From an uncultured Enterovibrio sp. (GTDB taxonomy: Bacteria > Pseudomonadota > Gammaproteobacteria > Enterobacterales > Vibrionaceae), in the NCBI GenBank assembly GCA_947041315.1, contig CAMRDW010000009.1, positions 1 through 37,623 on the forward strand: a stretch of DNA of 37,623 nucleotides, written 5' to 3'. Below, piece by piece: positions 728 to 37,615 of the stretch (position 1 is its first letter; every line of letters starts with the position of its first letter). Under the pieces are notes generated by a model. It searched no databases. It had not been told where the DNA came from and saw only the letters and a program-made list of their open reading frames with translations. The translations under genes and the position numbers were made by a program.

Positions 728-875
728 TTTCTAAGCCGCTTATATGGCGGTGAACTCATAGCATTCAAAGAAAAGTGTGTTGATAATTTTCTAAGCCGCC
801 TATATGGCGGTAAACCATCCGATACCAGATTCCTATCAACTCATGAATTTCTAAGCCGCCTATATGGCGGTAAAC
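728..875 (-). CRISPR. Short type I-F-like CRISPR array 1 (3 repeats, 2 spacers), in the left flank outside the element
   Basis: 28-bp repeats tttctaagccgcYtatatggcggtRaac at 728-755, 788-815, 848-875; 32-bp spacers. Reverse complement gttYaccgccatataRgcggcttagaaa is I-F-like. Confidence 0.85.
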
Positions 876-2565: not shown

Positions 2566-2890
2566 AGACTTAAAATCCACACCTGCTGGTGATGACCAAG
2601 ATGACTGAAAAATTTTTATTTCACGCGAGTGTGACTCGTTTGTTTGTGACAAGGTCCAGGAAGGACCCAGTCATAAATCTCACATATGCGCATATAAAAG
2701 AATAAGCATTAACGCATATATAAGCCACCAAATAGGATTAAGGGACAACATCAATGGTGACAAAGGATGAAGACGATTTTAGTGGCTCAAAACTTTATAT
2801 GTAGAAACGGATAATTTGAAACGTGTTTTCGAAGATTTTGAAGGAAAAACAAAAAAAGAGACCGCATAAATTGAAACATATTTTTTTGTT

Positions 2891-4179
2891 TAAACCCAAT
2901 AACTACGTGGCGGTGAACTCCATATCCGGTTCCTGTGTTGGGATTAGCTGTTTCTAAGCCGCCTGCGTGGCGGTGAACTTTAAAAAAAATTACGGGGATA
3001 TGAAAATAGATTTCTAAGCCGCCTGCGTGGCGGTGAACAAATCAGCTTGCTGGCGTTGCATAGCAGTATTTTTCTAAGCCGCCTGCGTGGCGGTGAACAT
3101 TATTCTTGAAAATCAAAATCATGCTTTGCTTTTCTAAGCCGCCTGCGTGGCGGTGAACGCATGAGAATGGATGATTGCATGGAATCAAACTTTCTAAGCC
3201 GCCTGCGTGGCGGTGAACATTCTGATTTAATAAAAAGGTACGGTAATAGCTTTCTAAGCCGCCTGCGTGGCGGTGAACTGGAACGAATGGTATAGAGACC
3301 AAAACCTACATTTCTAAGCCGCCTGCGTGGCGGTGAACACGCTAATACAGCCCCTTAAAATCTTACTAAGTTTCTAAGCCGCCTGCGTGGCGGTGAACAC
3401 CCCATCACCCCACCATCACCCAGAAATACATTTCTAAGCCGCCTGCGTGGCGGTGAACCTTTTCGCTCTGCACATGTCACCGAGGAACGATTTCTAAGCC
3501 GCCTGCGTGGCGGTGAACGGATATATGCTTATTGAAATCATATTTGTACTTTTCTAAGCCGCCTGCGTGGCGGTGAACAAATTGATTAGCAAAATCAAAG
3601 AGTACAGAAATTTCTAAGCCGCCTGCGTGGCGGTGAACCAGTAGAGCTTTAAATTTTGCGCCGGTCATTATTTCTAAGCCGCCTGCGTGGCGGTGAACAT
3701 CATCATTGCGTTCATTGATCGCACCTCTAATTTCTAAGCCGCCTGCGTGGCGGTGAACTGAAGAAAAGAAGAAATTAGACCCTTCCTTTAGTTTCTAAGC
3801 CGCCTGCGTGGCGGTGAACTTATTGATCATAAAATGCATTTCTTTTTTTATTTTCTAAGCCGCCTGCGTGGCGGTGAACCCTCTGATTAAGTTAAAACAC
3901 TATAATTGAAATTTCTAAGCCGCCTGCGTGGCGGTGAACAGTAAGACCCAAAAAAACATACAGAGATGTTTTTTCTAAGCCGCCTGCGTGGCGGTGAACG
4001 TTTTCCCGTTTTTTGATAAAGCACCAAAAGCTTTCTAAGCCGCCTGCGTGGCGGTGAACTCAGTTTCGTTAACCGATCAGCTTTTTCAGATTTTCTAAGC
4101 CGCCTGCGTGGCGGTGAACAAGCGCACAATTACAGAAACTCGTTTCAGTCATTTCTAAGCCGCCTGCGTGGCGGTGAAC
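2891..4179 (-). CRISPR. Type I-F-like CRISPR array 2 (21 intact repeats plus a degenerate distal repeat; 21 spacers)
   Basis: Repeat tttctaagccgcctgcgtggcggtgaac (minus: GTTCACCGCCACGCAGGCGGCTTAGAAA) every 60 bp from 2951 to 3731, then 3792 to 4152; one 33-bp spacer (3759-3791); degenerate repeat 2891-2918. Confidence 0.97.
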
Positions 4180-4335
4180 TATAAATTCTGAAGCAAAAAG
4201 CCGCTAATAGCAAGGGATGCCCCCTTAAAACCTTCTTTTCACCTTGTAAAAAACAGGACCTCATAAGCGATTGTTTATTAAGGGAATTATTTTCAATCAA
4301 AATAAGAAGGTCTAAACAAGGGTAAAAATAAACAT
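4180..4335 (-). promoter_or_regulatory. CRISPR leader of array 2
   Basis: Shares aattctgaagcaa, aatagcaagggat, gattgtttattaagg and aaacaagggtaaaa with the array 1 leader. Confidence 0.65.
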
Positions 4336-4422
4336 TGTGGATTTTCAGATAGGGAGAAATCGTCTTAAGACACTATGTGACAGTGAATCCTCATTTGAGG
4401 TTTAAATAAAGGAAATGGCTTT

Positions 4423-4450
4423 TTTCTAATCTACCTACGCGGCAGTTACG
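4423..4450 (-). other. Solitary divergent I-F-like CRISPR repeat unit
   Basis: tttctaatctacctacgcggcagttacg; 19/28 identity to the array 2 repeat. Minus strand CGTAACTGCCGCGTAGGTAGATTAGAAA keeps a CTGCC/GGTAG stem and TTAGAAA 3' end. Confidence 0.5.
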
Positions 4451-4744: not shown

Positions 4745-5998
4745 TTAGAGCGAGACAGGTGTGAGACAGCTTGACCAGCGCGATTTTAAGTGCAAATGAT
4801 AGTCATTTATCGCTGTTTTCTTAAGATCTTCGATGTGTGAATGCATATAAACTTGATCAAGCTTGTCTTTTGCATGATTCAATAAAGATTCACAAATAAT
4901 GTAATCAATGCCAATTTCTAACCACACTGATTTGGCTCTCTTTCGTAAATCATGGGCTGACCATTCCCTTTTTGAGACCTGTCTCACCCATTGGCTCGCA
5001 AGAGATCCATAAGCCGGCTTATTTTGATGAAAAGAGATTGGAAAGACATAATCCCCCGAATAGCCTTTTGATTTTTGCCAGTTCCGGTAAGAAAGAAGCA
5101 AGGCGGCCATTGGATCGGAAAGAGGGTAAATCATCTCTACGCCTGATTTTGTGTCAGTAGATGGAATAACCCAATGATTTAAGCTGAATGAGATGTTCTT
5201 CCATTTTGCTTTTCTTGTTTCGCCGATTCTTGCACCGTGACCAAGGAGCATCAAAACAAGCATGCGAATTTTAGGCGGTTGTTTTGCGCAATCTTCAAGA
5301 ATGCCTTTGATTTGTTCGCTATTAACTCGGCACCCTCGCACTTGAGCCTTTGTTAAACTGAAATTGTCAGGGAAAAAGTTTTTAAATTTAATCTCCGAAA
5401 GCGGGTTCGATGTGATGTGTTTTAAACGCTTGGCGCTCGAAAATGCGGCTTTTAGTAGACTGAATAAAGCTTTCACGTAGCTGACTGAATACCCTTCATT
5501 AAACATCTCTTGCACCAGGTTCTCGTCAATAATTTCATGGTTGAGGGTTTCGACAGGTTCACCATGGAAAATCCCGATTAAGTGGCGGTTGGACATACTG
5601 CGAAGATTATTCAACCTTTCTTTGCTTGAGTTTTTCTTTTTCACTTCACGAAGTACATGCCACTCAATCAATTGATCGACAGTCTCAAATCGATTGCAGC
5701 TCACCGCTTTATCTTGTGCGATAGTGATCGTAGCGGCGCTCACTAATGACATTATGTCTTTTGCTGATGTCGCAGGGTAAGTGCCAATACGATACGGATA
5801 TTGTTTTCCTCCCTCATAACGATAAAACCACCATGTGCCCGCGCTTCTTTTTGCGTTAAATCGTAAATAAAGGGAGGTTCGCACGTCTTTTAGTTGTCGA
5901 ACTCTTTGATCGCGTAAGTGCTTTTCGATTTGAGCGTCAGAAATCTTAAGGCTAATCGTCGATGCAAAAAACACGCCTTGGTTAAAGGATACTTTCAT
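4745..5998 (-). CDS. Tyrosine recombinase/phage integrase (second, internal copy)
   Basis: 417 aa; motifs HGARIGETRKAKW, HDLRKRAKSVW, LLNHAKDKLDQVYMHSH; N-terminal arm-type DNA-binding domain-like. Confidence 0.88.
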   Translation of the reverse strand: MKVSFNQGVFFASTISLKISDAQIEKHLRDQRVRQLKDVRTSLYLRFNAKRSAGTWWFYRYEGGKQYPYRIGTYPATSAKDIMSLVSAATITIAQDKAVSCNRFETVDQLIEWHVLREVKKKNSSKERLNNLRSMSNRHLIGIFHGEPVETLNHEIIDENLVQEMFNEGYSVSYVKALFSLLKAAFSSAKRLKHITSNPLSEIKFKNFFPDNFSLTKAQVRGCRVNSEQIKGILEDCAKQPPKIRMLVLMLLGHGARIGETRKAKWKNISFSLNHWVIPSTDTKSGVEMIYPLSDPMAALLLSYRNWQKSKGYSGDYVFPISFHQNKPAYGSLASQWVRQVSKREWSAHDLRKRAKSVWLEIGIDYIICESLLNHAKDKLDQVYMHSHIEDLKKTAINDYHLHLKSRWSSCLTPVSL

Positions 5999-7612: not shown

Positions 7613-8215
7613 TTAAAGAAGCTTTTTTACCTTGCGGGCGGATTCTGCAAAACCCACTAATTTCTGTGCGGCCACATCAATAATGCGTTTATAGTCTTCT
7701 ATTGAAAAATAGCCAGGTTCTTTGATTACCTGGTGAATTTCGGAAGGTGCAAACACAATACTATTTTGCGGAACTAATGTAGTGCTCACAACTTGACCAT
7801 GTTCCATTGCAATAAGAATACGCATTCTTGTCGCTTGAAGTGTGTTTGTGGTTTTTTCGCTTTGTATTCCAGAAGATGCCTTTGCAACTAGCTCTGAAAG
7901 TTCATTAAACTTATATATAAAAGCTTCTTTAATCGCTGCCGCTTTCTTTCCAGTAAAGCCCATCACAATGAACATAAAGCCATCTTTTGTTATTTCGTAT
8001 AAAGGCAAATTACGGCCTGTATTATCACGATATTCACTGGGCTGAAAATTGAGCTCAGTGAATTCAGCTGAACATTGAAGCGCTTCAATTTTCTGAATAA
8101 CGTTTTTGTGAAGCTTTCCGAATGCCTCGGCAATTTTGAGAGAATTGGTTTTAGGTTCGCCGTTTTGACTTGTGATTGCATCTAAGGGAAGAAGATGAAG
8201 AATTTTATTGATCAT
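7613..8215 (-). CDS. Rha family phage regulatory protein
   Basis: NSLKIAEAFGKLHKNVIQKIEAL...YEITKDGFMFIVMGFTGKKAAAIKEAFIYKFNEL; AGGAG before ATG at 8215. Confidence 0.82.
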   Translation of the reverse strand: MINKILHLLPLDAITSQNGEPKTNSLKIAEAFGKLHKNVIQKIEALQCSAEFTELNFQPSEYRDNTGRNLPLYEITKDGFMFIVMGFTGKKAAAIKEAFIYKFNELSELVAKASSGIQSEKTTNTLQATRMRILIAMEHGQVVSTTLVPQNSIVFAPSEIHQVIKEPGYFSIEDYKRIIDVAAQKLVGFAESARKVKKLL

Positions 8216-8237
8216 GATGAGCTCCTGTAATGATCTT

Positions 8238-8541
8238 TTAATCACCACACAGAGGTGTCAATCTGCTGGGTGGCGAACTGAACAAGGTTGACACTACCGC
8301 TACAGGAACGGCCAGCTTACGCTGCCTCGCCCAGCCCACCATAGATTCAGATGTGCTAAAGCTTACGCATAAAAAATCCAGCAACAAAGCTGACGACAAT
8401 GCGCCTGTAATCGTTCGGGGTGTCAATCCCGGCACCAGATTTTGCCAGTGCAAGCGCAGAATATGTTGAAACTGATACAAGGTCAATGTTTTTTGCGTTA
8501 CTCGTAACGCGCTTAAAAAGCATCAATTTAATCGATATCAA
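8238..8541 (-). other. Ash-family-like coding remnant spread over two frames
   Basis: Frame 1 STYSALALAKSGAGIDTPNDYRRIVVSFVAGFFMRKL, then frame 2 ...SMVGWARQRKLAVPVAVVSTLFSS, resembling phage Ash proteins. Confidence 0.35.
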
Positions 8542-11047: not shown

Positions 11048-11750
11048 TTTTTAACCCCTAGTTTTGCAAGGATCAAGCTGTATCGGCGCAATGCATCATC
11101 TTGTTTCCAGCTGCGCACTTCTGCTTCAGATGTATTACGATACATAGGAATGAGATCAATCAGCGCTTCGCAGTCGCTTTGGGAAAGAAAGCCGCCGATT
11201 GCGTAAAAAAATTGCTCACCTGTGGCTTTATAGCCAAATAATCATTCATGGCCATCAAATCGAGATCTTGTTTTTCAAGATTGCAAACCACGCGAAACAT
11301 AAATTCTTCTCGCTCGATTGGATCCAAGATCCCCGCTAACTTTTCGCAATGTCCCACCGTTGGCACTTGGAACCGAATGCGCGTAAATTCCTCGTCTATT
11401 TCATTTTTAAAGGTGAACAACAACTCAAAGGAATACGTTTCACCATTAATCTCATGCCCCGTCAGGAGATTACTTGGTGTGTTAATAAAAACCTGAATGT
11501 CAGACCCCAGCTGATTGAAATCAGGCGCGCGAAAATTTCCAAATTCTTCAATGGAGATATCAGTACATTCAAAAATCGCAGCTTTATATTGAGCAAATGT
11601 TTCAAGCTCTGAGATTTCGTCTTTTTTAATAAATGGCAATTTATTGAATGCACCGAATGTAATGGGCTTAATGACGATCTCATGAGAACCCCCTCTCCCA
11701 AAAAATGGCAAGGTTGACGTTCTTTTGGTTTCTGATTTTGATTCTTTCAT
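11044..11750 (-). CDS. P2-like E/E' tail chaperone pair by programmed -1 frameshift (E = 11160-11750)
   Basis: E frame AAT TTT TTT ACG; the -1 frame continues YAIGGFLSQSDCEALIDLIPMYRNTSEAEVRSWKQDDALRRYSLILAKLGVKK-stop, ending in ATGA overlap with the tape measure start. Slippery T_TTT_TTT at 11205-11211. Confidence 0.75.
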
Positions 11751-29858: not shown

Positions 29859-31217
29859 TCAGGTCATCAGGTAGATTGCTTTTATCGCATCAATTACGAT
29901 TTTAAGTCTTTGCTCTTTTTGTACTGTAGGATGTTGGATGGGATAGAAACTTCTAATCTGTGAATCCCAATACTTTTTCTGTTCATCTTCATGGCATACA
30001 AAATGTTGATTGTTGTGTTTGCACTCGGGTCCAAGTATGACTGTTATTATATCGAGGACAGATGGCTCAGTCTCTCCATCATTAAACACAGGTAAATTAT
30101 CGAGACCAAGAAAGTGACCTAGCTCTTTTGCATCCAGCTCTTCACGCAATGCTGCATTTGCTAAATTCGGCTTACAACTTACGAGCAATATTCCTACCAA
30201 GCTTAATAAGCTGACAATCAACCCATAACCATTTAATCTCGATTCTTTATCTGAAAGGGTTTGATAAATCTCAATGTGACGAGCGAGTGTTTCTACTTCT
30301 CGCAAAGAAAGATGATTTATTTTGATGACCTGTTTAACCAGATCAAAAAAATGAACTCGATTCAGGGGAAGATCCTTCAGCGTTTCACTTTTATTAAGCA
30401 ACTTTTTATAATGAAAAACAGAAGCCGAAACACTTTCACCCCCGCTCTCATTCTTCGTACTTGGCAGAGTGAAAGTGAATTTAAGAAATTTATCTAGATA
30501 GCGCTGGGCGTCAATCGTTCGACCATAGCAGTGATTAATTGATGCTTTGAGCTGATCGGTATTTGTGATTAAGACAAACTGTAGCCCTTCGATATCAAAG
30601 GTGTGCTTAACCGTTTCAAGCATCAAGACTGCAAAGTCAGGACGGCAACGATCAAGCTCATCCATAAACAAAATCATCGGCTTCTCATGAGCAATACTTT
30701 TTAATGCCCCCTGCAATGCCTGTAAGTTTTTTTCTGCTTTAGCATGATCTTTTAAAAGCGATTCAATAGATGCATCAATGGCTTTATCAGTCACTTGCTT
30801 AATCTCTTTTTCGAGATTTTCTGCTACTGAATCAACATCTTGACGTAAAAGATGAGAAACGAGGGCTTTTCCTCCAACTTTTAAACCGTACCGCAATGCT
30901 GGCATCGCTTTTTTAATCAGGGTTCTTTGTTTATTTTCAGGCAGAACGGCCAAAACGTTAGTGAGCACAGTAAGCAAAGGTTCATCAGCGTGATCAGCTT
31001 TGAATGCATCGATATAGATAAGATGGTGAGTATCTTCAATCTTCATTAGATTGATCATTTTTAGGCAAAATTCTGTCTTACCCAATCCCCATGAACCATC
31101 CACGACAAGCGGCGAAACGGATATGTCCGAGCGAAGAAGTTTAATTGCTTTTTCAGCGATGCTTTTTCGATTAAATTCATCACGTCCTTCAAACGTGATG
31201 TCAGTGTCCAGCGCCAT
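29859..31217 (-). CDS. KAP family P-loop NTPase
   Basis: DGSWGLGKTEFCLKMI Walker A; PMILFMDELDRCRPDFAVLMLETVKHTFDIEGLQFVLITN. Confidence 0.87.
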   Translation of the reverse strand: MALDTDITFEGRDEFNRKSIAEKAIKLLRSDISVSPLVVDGSWGLGKTEFCLKMINLMKIEDTHHLIYIDAFKADHADEPLLTVLTNVLAVLPENKQRTLIKKAMPALRYGLKVGGKALVSHLLRQDVDSVAENLEKEIKQVTDKAIDASIESLLKDHAKAEKNLQALQGALKSIAHEKPMILFMDELDRCRPDFAVLMLETVKHTFDIEGLQFVLITNTDQLKASINHCYGRTIDAQRYLDKFLKFTFTLPSTKNESGGESVSASVFHYKKLLNKSETLKDLPLNRVHFFDLVKQVIKINHLSLREVETLARHIEIYQTLSDKESRLNGYGLIVSLLSLVGILLVSCKPNLANAALREELDAKELGHFLGLDNLPVFNDGETEPSVLDIITVILGPECKHNNQHFVCHEDEQKKYWDSQIRSFYPIQHPTVQKEQRLKIVIDAIKAIYLMT

Positions 31218-31995: not shown

Positions 31996-32075
31996 GAATT
32001 TGATATAACAGCATATCAACGCCCCTACCACGCAAGCATGAGCCTGTGAGAGCGTAAATTCATGCCTGCGTGGGG
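31996..32075. repeat. Partial copy of the 171-bp repeat family
   Basis: gatttgatataac..catatcaa....ccacgcaagcatgagcctgtgagagcgtaaattcatgc shared with 32815-33330. Confidence 0.7.
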
Positions 32076-32107
32076 ATGGAACAGTAAGAACCGATCATCT
32101 GGTTGCA

Positions 32108-32435
32108 TTTCTAAGCCGCCTGCGTGGCGGTGAACATGCGCTAGATCATGCAGGTATACCGCGGAGATTTCTAAGCCGCCTGCGTGGCGGTGAACTTTGG
32201 TATATCAAAAACTGCGTGGAGAAAATGTTTCTAAGCCGCCTGCGTGGCGGTGAACTCTCGCTTGATACACTAGCGAAAAGCACAAGCTTTCTAAGCCGCC
32301 TGCGTGGCGGTGAACAGACATTATTTTATGGCAATATTTCTTTTGCTTTTCTAAGCCGCCTGCGTGGCGGTGAAGCCGTTTAGGTAAAAAACCAAGCGGT
32401 GAACAGTTTTCTAAGCCGCCTGCGTGGCGGTGAAC
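32108..32435 (-). CRISPR. Type I-F-like CRISPR array 3 (6 repeats, 5 spacers)
   Basis: Same 28-bp repeat as array 2 at 32108, 32168, 32228, 32288, 32348 (last base changed), 32408. Confidence 0.95.
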
Positions 32436-32580
32436 CGGAGATTTTGAAGAAAGAAGAGCGTGATAGCAAGGGATTGATGGCAAAAACCATGTTTTGACCT
32501 TATAAAAGCACAATGACCATAACTAATTGTTTAATAATGGTATTTTTTAGGCTCCAAAAAAGAAGGTCAAAATTAGGCTT
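32436..32580 (-). promoter_or_regulatory. CRISPR leader of array 3 (more diverged)
   Basis: attttgaaga, gtgatagcaagggat, accttataaaa, aattgtttaataa shared with the other leaders. Confidence 0.6.
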
Positions 32581-32814
32581 TCATTTACCTCTTTTATACA
32601 CATCAAATGAGTGCCGCTATGCAATTATGTTGAACAAAAAAACCTAGAGTACGATAAAGCTAAAAATCACACATATTAATTGATGAAATCATATTTTTCA
32701 TCAAGTTATAGTGCGGTAGATGTTTTCTTTCAACAAATGATCGATGGAAAGCGCATCACATTTTCAAATGTTGACCTCCCAGCCAGCCCCTCTTGCAGCG
32801 ATCAAATGTAAATT

Positions 32815-33330
32815 GGTATAACGCCATATCAAAGCTCTAACCACGCAAGCATGAGCCTGTGAGAGCGTAAATTCATGCAATGCGCACCACCTTGCTAAAC
32901 CGCTCTTGCTCTAAATGTAAAAAGAGCCGCCGCTCTTGTATGCCAAGCTGCACGCAGGCCTCTTACCGCTATCCTGGATAGATTTGATATAACGCCATAT
33001 CAAAGCTCTAACCACGCAAGCATGAGCCTGTGAGAGCGTAAATTCATGCAATGCGCACCACCTTGCTAAACCGCTCTTGCTCTAAATGTAAAAAGAGCCG
33101 CCGCTCTTGTATGCCAAGCTGCACGCAGGCCTCTTACCGCTATCCTGGATAGATTTGATATAACACCAAATCAAAGCCCTAACCACGTAAGCATGACGCT
33201 GTGAGAGCGTAAATTCCTGCAATGCGTACCCCCCTGCCAAGCCGCTCTTGCTCTAAATGTAAAAAGAGCCGCCGCTCTTGTATGCCAAGCTGCGCGCAGG
33301 CCTCTTTCAGCTCGATAACTGTTTGGTGTA
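32815..33330. repeat. Three tandem copies of a 171-bp repeat
   Basis: Equivalent points at 32821, 32992, 33163; first two nearly identical, third diverged. Confidence 0.92.
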
Positions 33331-34344: not shown

Positions 34345-34646
34345 TAAACTTCAACTTCAACCGGATATATATCGGGACGCAAAACTGATTTATTCACTTC
34401 ACCATTTGTTAGTTCATGCAAATGCAGCGTGATTTTAAAACCTGCCTTTTTTTGCCCTCGCATGATCATGCGAAGATAGCCAACGCTGGTTTTAGCTTTC
34501 AAAGCCAGATTTTTCTTCTTCTCAGCTGATAGGGTTTTCCAGTATGTCGAATACACAAGCGCACCTTTTTTGTCTACTTTCTCAAAGTGTACCAATTTAG
34601 TACCTCGGATAGCAACAAAAAAAGCACTCCTTAGATCATGTACCAT
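34344..34646 (-). CDS. Cro-like repressor (true start probably inside the ORF)
   Basis: YWKTLSAEKKKNLALKAKTSVGYLRMIMRGQKKAGFKITLHLHELTNGEVNKSVLRPDIYP; divergent from cI-like gene. Confidence 0.68.
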   Translation of the reverse strand: MVHDLRSAFFVAIRGTKLVHFEKVDKKGALVYSTYWKTLSAEKKKNLALKAKTSVGYLRMIMRGQKKAGFKITLHLHELTNGEVNKSVLRPDIYPVEVEV

Positions 34647-34654
34647 TTTAGTGC
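34589..34654. promoter_or_regulatory. Putative cI/cro operators
   Basis: gtaccaatttagtac (34589-34603) and gtaccattttagtgc (34640-34654) in the divergent region. Confidence 0.55.
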
Positions 34655-34673
34655 GATAATTTATGATGAAATT

Positions 34674-35327
34674 ATGAAAAAAATAGAAGATATCAGATTA
34701 GAAAATGCCAGGTTGCTGATTGATAAATGTGGTTCAATTACTTTCCTTTCGGATAAAATTGATCGTTCAACAACTCAGCTCAGCCGGCTAATGGGAAAAA
34801 ACCCAACAAAAATTATTGGACGTCGATTGTCGCGTCATATAGAGCACTCATTGCGGCTGGAAGATGGATGGATGGATCAAGATAGAAATGCAAGTGTTGT
34901 TTCAGAACAAAATAATAACACTCTTCAAAAAATTGTTATTCATGAATTAACCTATCCATTAATCACTAAAAATCAAGCCGTTAACTGGAGTGAAACTCAT
35001 ACAGATTTAAGCCATTTTAAGCATTTTTCTTGTCCTGTTCCTTGTGGAAAAAAAACATTTCTACTCGAAGTCGACGGGATCAGCATGGAGTCTCAATTTA
35101 AAGCCGGATATTTAATATGGGTAGATCCAGAGAGAGAAGCAATAAATAAAAGCTATGTTGTTGCCTTTCTAAAGAATAAAAACGAAGCTACATTCAAGCA
35201 GATTATCATTGAAGACGGGTTAAAAATGCTCAGAGCAATGAATCGGGACTGGCCGGAGCAATATATACAGATAGATGAGAATTGTGAAATTATAGGAACG
35301 GTTGTTTTTTGCGGGTGGTCTCTTTAG
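34674..35327 (+). CDS. CI-like repressor with S24/LexA-type peptidase domain
   Basis: LEVDGISMESQFKAGYLIWVD...KSYVVAFLKNKNEATFKQI; N-terminal HTH. Confidence 0.82.
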   Translation: MKKIEDIRLENARLLIDKCGSITFLSDKIDRSTTQLSRLMGKNPTKIIGRRLSRHIEHSLRLEDGWMDQDRNASVVSEQNNNTLQKIVIHELTYPLITKNQAVNWSETHTDLSHFKHFSCPVPCGKKTFLLEVDGISMESQFKAGYLIWVDPEREAINKSYVVAFLKNKNEATFKQIIIEDGLKMLRAMNRDWPEQYIQIDENCEIIGTVVFCGWSL

Positions 35328-36208: not shown

Positions 36209-37387
36209 TTATTTTCCTTCTAGCGTCTTTTCAATCTGCAAAAACAATGCATCTCCGAAAGTCTCATACGCAATTTGTTGTTCCACAATCCAATCATGCT
36301 TGTTATATACACGCATGACACCTACAAGTTCATGTCCCAGCATACGCTCAGTCACATGCGGCATCGCACCTTGCTCGGAACAAATCGTAGAAATACTGCG
36401 CCTAAAATCATGGGTGCGCCAGTGCGGTAACGCCAATGTGTCACGTAATCGTCGTATATATCGATTAGCCGCCGAAATGGTGATAGGCCGATGAAGTGAA
36501 GCGCCTGGAAATAAATAATCATCATAAATATTCATCAAGCGTAAAAGCAGCGGTTTGATCTGCTTTGTTATCGGTCGTCGAATAACATTCCCCATCTTTG
36601 TGTTCTCAGCCGGTACAATCCAAATATCATTTTTCATATCAAAGTGGATTTTCTGAGCCAACCTGAGTTCAGAAAGACGATTTCCCCACAGTATAGTTAA
36701 AAGATGCAGATTTTTAGTTGACGTTCCAGCGCGACTTCTTTCGATGGCGATCCAAATCTCCGCCAGCTCATTTACAGATAAAACGCGCGTCCCTTCATCC
36801 GCTGATGTACCAACATCTCGTTGACGTATTTTTTCAATGTTCGTCCCGTCAATCAAGAATTTTGACTTGCAAAAATTCAGGCAAGCCCGTAACTTCGAAA
36901 ATGCAGCTTGTGCAGTTTTGGGAGATGTTTTCGCGATACCATCAAACCAGGACATCCATTCGCGTGCAGAGATCGTTTCAACATTCATATCATGAAAAGC
37001 TGGATAGTAGTAATTTTTAGAAAACGACGCGTATATGTCTTGTGTTCCTGGCTTTTGATACTTCACCTTCTCTTCTCGCCAAAAATCAATGCAGTTCGCT
37101 AACGTGATAAAATCAGTTTCGCCAGTTACGGCGATTTGAGGGTTTCGACCGGCGTCTTTCAATTCCATCATTCGTTGATGTATTTGTCGAGCTTGCTTTA
37201 AACTGACGCAGGGATATCGGCCAATTTTGTACCGTTTATTTTCACCGTTAAATCTGCATCGATATTGAAATGTAATTCGCCCTTTCGGAGAAATCTTTGC
37301 AATCAGGCCACCACCATCATTTAACTCAGATGCTCCCGAATATTCTTTATTGGATATTGCGTTCAATGTTCTATTTATCAGACTCAA
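36209..37387 (-). CDS. int: Tyrosine recombinase/integrase of the element
   Basis: 392 aa; LNDGGGLIAKISPKGRITFQYRCRFNGENKRYKIGRYPCVSLKQAR arm-binding; GNRLSELRLA, HDFRRSISTICSEQG, LGHELVGVMRVYNKHD. Confidence 0.93.
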   Translation of the reverse strand: MSLINRTLNAISNKEYSGASELNDGGGLIAKISPKGRITFQYRCRFNGENKRYKIGRYPCVSLKQARQIHQRMMELKDAGRNPQIAVTGETDFITLANCIDFWREEKVKYQKPGTQDIYASFSKNYYYPAFHDMNVETISAREWMSWFDGIAKTSPKTAQAAFSKLRACLNFCKSKFLIDGTNIEKIRQRDVGTSADEGTRVLSVNELAEIWIAIERSRAGTSTKNLHLLTILWGNRLSELRLAQKIHFDMKNDIWIVPAENTKMGNVIRRPITKQIKPLLLRLMNIYDDYLFPGASLHRPITISAANRYIRRLRDTLALPHWRTHDFRRSISTICSEQGAMPHVTERMLGHELVGVMRVYNKHDWIVEQQIAYETFGDALFLQIEKTLEGK

Positions 37388-37568: not shown

Positions 37569-37615
37569 ATGAACAACACAGAACAAGCCACATTTTACTT
37601 TATAGATTATGAAAC
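37569..37615 (+). repeat. attR: 47-bp direct repeat with attL
   Basis: Identical to 1436-1482. Confidence 0.9.

Follow-up and report, generated by a model that had tools for sequence, protein, structure and literature searches.

In the genome of an uncultured Enterovibrio species, a 36.1-kb P2-like prophage integrated at the 5' end of a gene that we take to be exonuclease I (sbcB), a name given from similarity rather than from a family search, carries two leader-equipped type I-F CRISPR arrays and no cas genes. The reading favored here, to which a probability of about three in four is assigned, is that these arrays borrow the type I-F Cas proteins of the host. Under this reading, which is proposed from sequence, transcription of the two prophage arrays (arrays 2 and 3) would start in their own leaders, either in the lysogen or during infection, and the transcripts would be cut by host Cas6f. 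The crRNAs would then be loaded into the host I-F Cascade with Cas2-3, which would destroy the DNA of rival phages, such as tailed phages resembling the prophage on contig C29 and gokushoviruses, while new spacers would be acquired in trans through insertion at the leaders by host Cas1-Cas2-3, or arrays would be swapped by recombination.

The longer of the two arrays, array 2, occupies positions 2951-4179 (minus strand) of the window, meaning the whole stretch of 37,623 nucleotides that was analysed. It consists of 21 identical 28-nt repeats (GTTCACCGCCACGCAGGCGGCTTAGAAA) with a period of 60 nt and a single exception of 61 nt, and all 21 repeats match the Rfam family RF01317 (CRISPR-DR4). At the leader-distal end, a degenerate terminal repeat (GTTCACCGCCACG) at 2891-2918 (minus strand), followed by unrelated sequence, closes the 21st spacer, so that the count of 21 spacers (32-33 nt) and the start at 2891 given in the earlier note are correct; the array is real. 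The repeat also possesses the two features by which that note had assigned it to subtype I-F, a 5-bp hairpin typical of the type and 3' CTTAGAAA; the 28-nt repeat, the hairpin, the CTTAGAAA-type handle, and the 32-nt spacers are together those of a type I-F array. The array 2 leader was placed at 4180-4440 (minus strand) from its identity to the leader of an array on phage contig C12 and from conserved blocks common to other leaders, and a promoter scan of it returned scores no better than those of shuffled sequences.

The boundaries of the prophage are defined by a 47-bp direct repeat (ATGAACAACACAG...GATTATGAAAC), the sole long direct repeat linking the left part of the window with its right end. 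The copies lie on the plus strand at 1436-1482 (attL) and 37569-37615 (attR), and the core, which reads MNNTEQATFYFIDYET, is the start of the presumed sbcB gene; attL is identical to the first sbcB codons, and attR continues into the intact gene on contig C14, which opens with exactly the final 55 nt of the window followed by an intact reading frame. An integrase gene adjoins attR at 36209-37387 on the minus strand (Pfam PF00589/PF13356, PHROG 1), and the empty site is found on contig C51 of a sister genome (G015), where the sequence runs unbroken from the leader of a host array via the upstream region into an intact sbcB. On the basis of the att core, the adjoining integrase, and the empty site, the prophage extends from about 1436 to 37615, enclosing arrays 2 and 3, in agreement with the earlier description of array 2 as lying inside a prophage, and leaving array 1 in host DNA. 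The right end of the window contig coincides exactly with the first 55-mer common to attR and the empty site, which suggests that prophage-free copies are present in the sample. At 1036-1094 lies a repeat of about 60 bp that is dispersed in dozens of copies through this genome and the sister genome.

Judged from its gene content, the prophage has a P2-like tail with a lambda-like head. Its tail, baseplate, head, terminase, and lysis genes (5995-26698, minus strand) are syntenic with those of Vibrio phage 10N.286.54.F2_PE001, as is a second integrase-like gene situated beside the tail genes, which here lies between them and array 2 (4745-5998, minus strand). The early region of that phage contains a retron, where the comparable region of the prophage contains array 3 together with a gene at 29859-31217 (minus strand) that adjoins the array and encodes a KAP-family P-loop NTPase of the PADLOC candidate defence family PDC-S20. 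The CI-like S24 repressor of the prophage is encoded at 34638-35327 (plus strand). Rfam matches to C4 antisense RNA and isrK were observed side by side at 8266-8451, next to a Phage_pRha antirepressor gene at 7613-8248.

Two arrays of the window had been overlooked in the earlier note. Array 3 (32108-32435, minus strand), in the early region of the prophage, comprises six repeats, five identical and one with a single change, and five spacers, with a leader at 32436-32600 (minus strand) placed by an alignment of nine leaders. Array 1 (728-875, minus strand), with three variant repeats, belongs to the host and lies outside the prophage, some 560 bp upstream of the att site. All three arrays are oriented along the minus strand, and the leader of each lies to its right; conserved blocks span the nine leaders from this genome and the sister genome, and the genome holds 57 repeats in total on five contigs. 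Array 3 and its leader are located among copies of a 171-bp tandem repeat (31998-33325), with one partial copy to the left and three to the right.

Since the assembly is a draft of 325 contigs with breaks of a k=55-like pattern and many arrays sharing the same repeat, host arrays might have been wrongly joined to the prophage through identical repeats. Such an artefact is considered highly improbable, because the 28-nt repeats are shorter than the 55-nt overlap, phage genes stand on either side of array 3, and unique flanks connect array 2 to phage DNA at both ends, the order of flank, leader, and flank being repeated on C12.

The prophage itself contains no cas genes, and the statement of the earlier note that the window lacks them is borne out by the genome's Cas7f matches, which fall on contigs C172 and C174 only. 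These contigs carry two I-F operons, each encoding Cas2-3, Cas8f, Cas5f, and Cas7f. The host thus encodes cas genes of the same subtype as the arrays, as a cas-less array using host Cas would need, and the host I-F Cas proteins with which array 2 had been proposed to work in trans are represented by two effector operons, so that a lack of host I-F Cas, named in the earlier note as counting against the proposal, does not apply. For Cas1 and Cas6f, no match was found elsewhere in the draft genome, only fragments at the contig ends of C172 and C174. Both contigs begin in a common cas1-end sequence and end in a common 55 nt at the cas6f start, which (MNYYQEITLLPD...) resembles Cas6f of Oceanospirillum sanctuarii in locus L025. 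The break of the assembly at cas1 and cas6f is attributable to the presence of two operons with common sequence at exactly those ends, and complete cas1 and cas6f are presumed to be present in the host.

The two operons (loci L065 on C172 and L066 on C174) have in common the cas1 end, the start of cas6f, and the beginning of cas2-3 that encodes the Cas2 domain, and diverge strongly in Cas8f, Cas5f, Cas7f, and the Cas3 body. Two repeat classes occur in the genome, CACCGCC...GGCGG and CACGGCC...GGCCG. A solitary I-F-like repeat (GTCACACTGCCATTAAGGCAGTTTAGAAA) was further observed in the sister genome, between cas1 and cas2-3 on contig C168 (locus L067), near the cas1 end.

The cassette of array 2 also occurs on C12, a phage contig of an unrelated phage whose portal protein shows 24% identity and which has its own sheath and baseplate. 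Identity in the flanks of the array amounts to 96-98% (255 of 260 positions in the leader and 333 of 347 in the trailer), and both copies close with the same degenerate terminal repeat, while not a single spacer is shared, the oldest included. On the cassette, the two ends of the C12 contig lie only a few bases apart, and C12 is thus probably circular. The conservation of the cassette together with its wholly different spacers indicates that arrays on the phages of this lineage are kept and refilled, through adaptation or through recombination. A common cassette in two unrelated phages with zero common spacers makes host adaptation and recombination testable against each other as routes of updating.

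These observations bear on whether the arrays are passive hitch-hikers, that is, former host arrays gained by recombination that are now inert or decaying and bring the phage no benefit. Such an origin would fit the shrinkage of the nearby host array 1 to three variant repeats, the failure to see cas1 and cas6f in the draft, and the large share of prophage spacers for which no target was found. It is nevertheless judged unlikely, given that 26 of the 27 repeats of the two prophage arrays are identical, that the leader is preserved in another phage despite entirely different spacers, that the two host effector operons appear intact over the parts present, and that in a co-resident phage a target of one prophage spacer is flanked by CC and has its seed intact.

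That target emerged from a scan in which the spacers of this genome and of the sister genome were compared with one Vibrio phage, the phage contigs C9, C12, and C29, and two further contigs, C20 and C151. Allowing for as many as 8 mismatches, the scan gave 24 matches, 12 of them with the 5'-CC PAM, and 630 shuffled spacers yielded 13 matches, none with CC. The PAM support comes mostly from arrays on other contigs and in the sister genome; the prophage's own spacers contribute one match, with CC. All five matches with at most two mismatches carry CC. They comprise exact matches to C12 by a spacer of the C29 array and by the array on sister contig C55, the latter also matching the window prophage exactly, and matches within two mismatches by a sister C189 spacer to C12 and by a sister C301 spacer to C29. 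The arrays of the lineage have protospacers in co-resident phages and other elements with the I-F CC PAM.

The single match from the prophage's own spacers is that of array 3 spacer 3 (32256-32287, minus strand) to positions 11562-11593 of prophage contig C29, with six mismatches, a perfect match over the first 10 nt, and a CC PAM; none of the shuffled versions of this spacer came closer than 10 mismatches. A second target is indicated by array 2 spacer 15 (3279-3310, minus strand), the complementary strand of which encodes WNEWYRDQNL, a motif of the gokushovirus major capsid protein VP1. The peptide agrees with VP1 at every residue and scores 66, where the null reached at most 40, and the spacer matches gokushovirus major capsid genes at 26 of 26 nt in one and 29 of 32 nt in others. 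A CC PAM is present at this site in 3 of 12 microvirus relatives, which are relatives rather than the actual target virus. The C29 prophage and a gokushovirus-like capsid gene are accordingly regarded as good leads to other viruses at which the prophage spacers may be aimed. Together with the CC-flanked protospacers of the wider arrays, they lend indirect support to the earlier idea that the array acts against competing phages.

The remaining 24 of the 26 prophage spacers gave no convincing target in the genomes, phages, and plasmids searched, and the window spacers gave none in 19 genomes of the genus except for a similar spacer on C151. Several candidates were set aside: one weak plasmid match (30 nt, E=0.08, in an SNF2-related gene), matches to large Vibrio phages and E. 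coli phages at chance level (E about 7), and a match of array 2 spacer 20 to its own cassette and C12, which, being AT-rich, with 7 mismatches and no CC PAM, is ascribed to chance. The remark in the earlier note that several spacers translate to open peptides carries no information, since at least one of the six frames is open in 26 of 27 window spacers tested. Its example, NTAMQRQQADF, bears a weak likeness to a microvirus pilot-protein motif (p about 0.08), and NTAMQRQQAD was rejected as a gokushovirus pilot-protein motif because its score lies inside the null.

The prophage is itself a target. The sister genome, which lacks the prophage at the same site, carries spacers against it, and the protospacer of the C55 spacer lies at 2584-2615 (plus strand), matched at 32 of 32 positions and preceded by a CC PAM at 2582-2583. 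In the C12 copy of this site, the PAM is now GC and three mismatches are present, as would be expected of an escape variant, in a single case.

Inhibition of host CRISPR would benefit a prophage exposed to such spacers, and type I-F RNA anti-CRISPRs that mimic repeats are known in prophages (PMC10651486). The arrays might accordingly act as a decoy whose repeats soak up host Cas6f and Cas7f and so protect the phage, targeting being secondary. This is considered very unlikely, because RNA anti-CRISPRs are solitary repeat units, from which array repeats are excluded by definition (PMC10651486), whereas the prophage has 27 full repeats with unit-length, all-different spacers, leaders, and CC-flanked targets. 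RacrIF1 resembles the present case as a type I-F repeat in a prophage without cas genes (PMC10651486), and differs from it as a solitary inhibitory repeat differs from full arrays with spacers.

The use of host Cas by prophage arrays has its closest counterpart in the Clostridioides difficile prophages phiCD630-1 and phiCD630-2, which carry cas-less type I-B arrays from which crRNAs are made and with whose spacers interference was shown (PMC8406132). The likeness extends to multi-spacer arrays and to a host in which several arrays coexist with at least two cas operons (PMC8406132), while the difference lies in subtype I-B and in Firmicutes, as opposed to type I-F here; the prophage array pairs of C. 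difficile 630 are identical to each other, whereas the present cassette is common to two unrelated phages and its spacers are entirely different. The portogloboviruses SPV1 and SPV2 of Sulfolobales, non-lytic archaeal viruses, bear mini-CRISPR arrays with a leader and host-type repeats but no cas genes, have different spacers at the same position in related viruses, and target co-occurring viruses (PMC6858448). Mini-arrays contain one or two spacers, compared with 21 and 5 in the arrays described here, which reside in a tailed-phage prophage and match a target phage that is not a close relative. The array of cyanophage N-1 is likewise phage-borne and cas-less, with an AT-rich leader and host-like repeats (PMC4916379); it has four spacers without known targets and DR5-family repeats, in contrast to a type I-F array with identified targets. 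ICP1 is described as a phage with a type I-F CRISPR-Cas system and its own cas genes (PMC11656645), thus sharing I-F arrays with the window prophage, which has no cas genes.

Given the C. difficile, archaeal-virus, and cyanophage precedents, virus-borne cas-less arrays are already known, and the present arrays constitute an I-F case. They are set apart by their unusual length, by their pairing within one prophage, and by the swapped cassette; in the INPHARED set, no deposited phage carries the array 2 repeat. A leader-equipped I-F array of 21 spacers, whose targets include a recognisable rival phage and an ssDNA-phage capsid, carries the idea over to a gammaproteobacterial subtype that has been studied in depth. 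Beyond the borrowing of host Cas by this one prophage, a more tentative proposal, for which the odds appear slightly below even, is that leader-equipped I-F arrays could be standard exchangeable cargo of temperate phages in this lineage, with several unrelated phages of a single host each bearing an array that host adaptation keeps up to date and that is aimed at the other residents and at ssDNA microviruses, forming a phage-versus-phage network operated through host Cas.

Several further observations concern the spacers and elements of the lineage. The window spacer at 3519-3550 and a spacer of locus L028 (8804-8835) belong to different repeat classes and differ at 2 of 32 nt, and they were probably acquired in separate events, at one and the same site of related phages. 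Another near-identical pair, with 4 differences, connects C151 with sister contig C189. Genes for a 599-aa replication-type protein, an integrase, and, next to a possible capsid gene, a small ATPase lie in an integrated element on C20 (4066-14498, locus L139). This element may represent a non-tailed prophage of small size, and it is matched by spacers of the host array, of C151, and of the sister arrays on C55 and C301. The 25-repeat array on sister contig C301 (locus L074) contains a five-spacer block that is present twice, representing an internal duplication.
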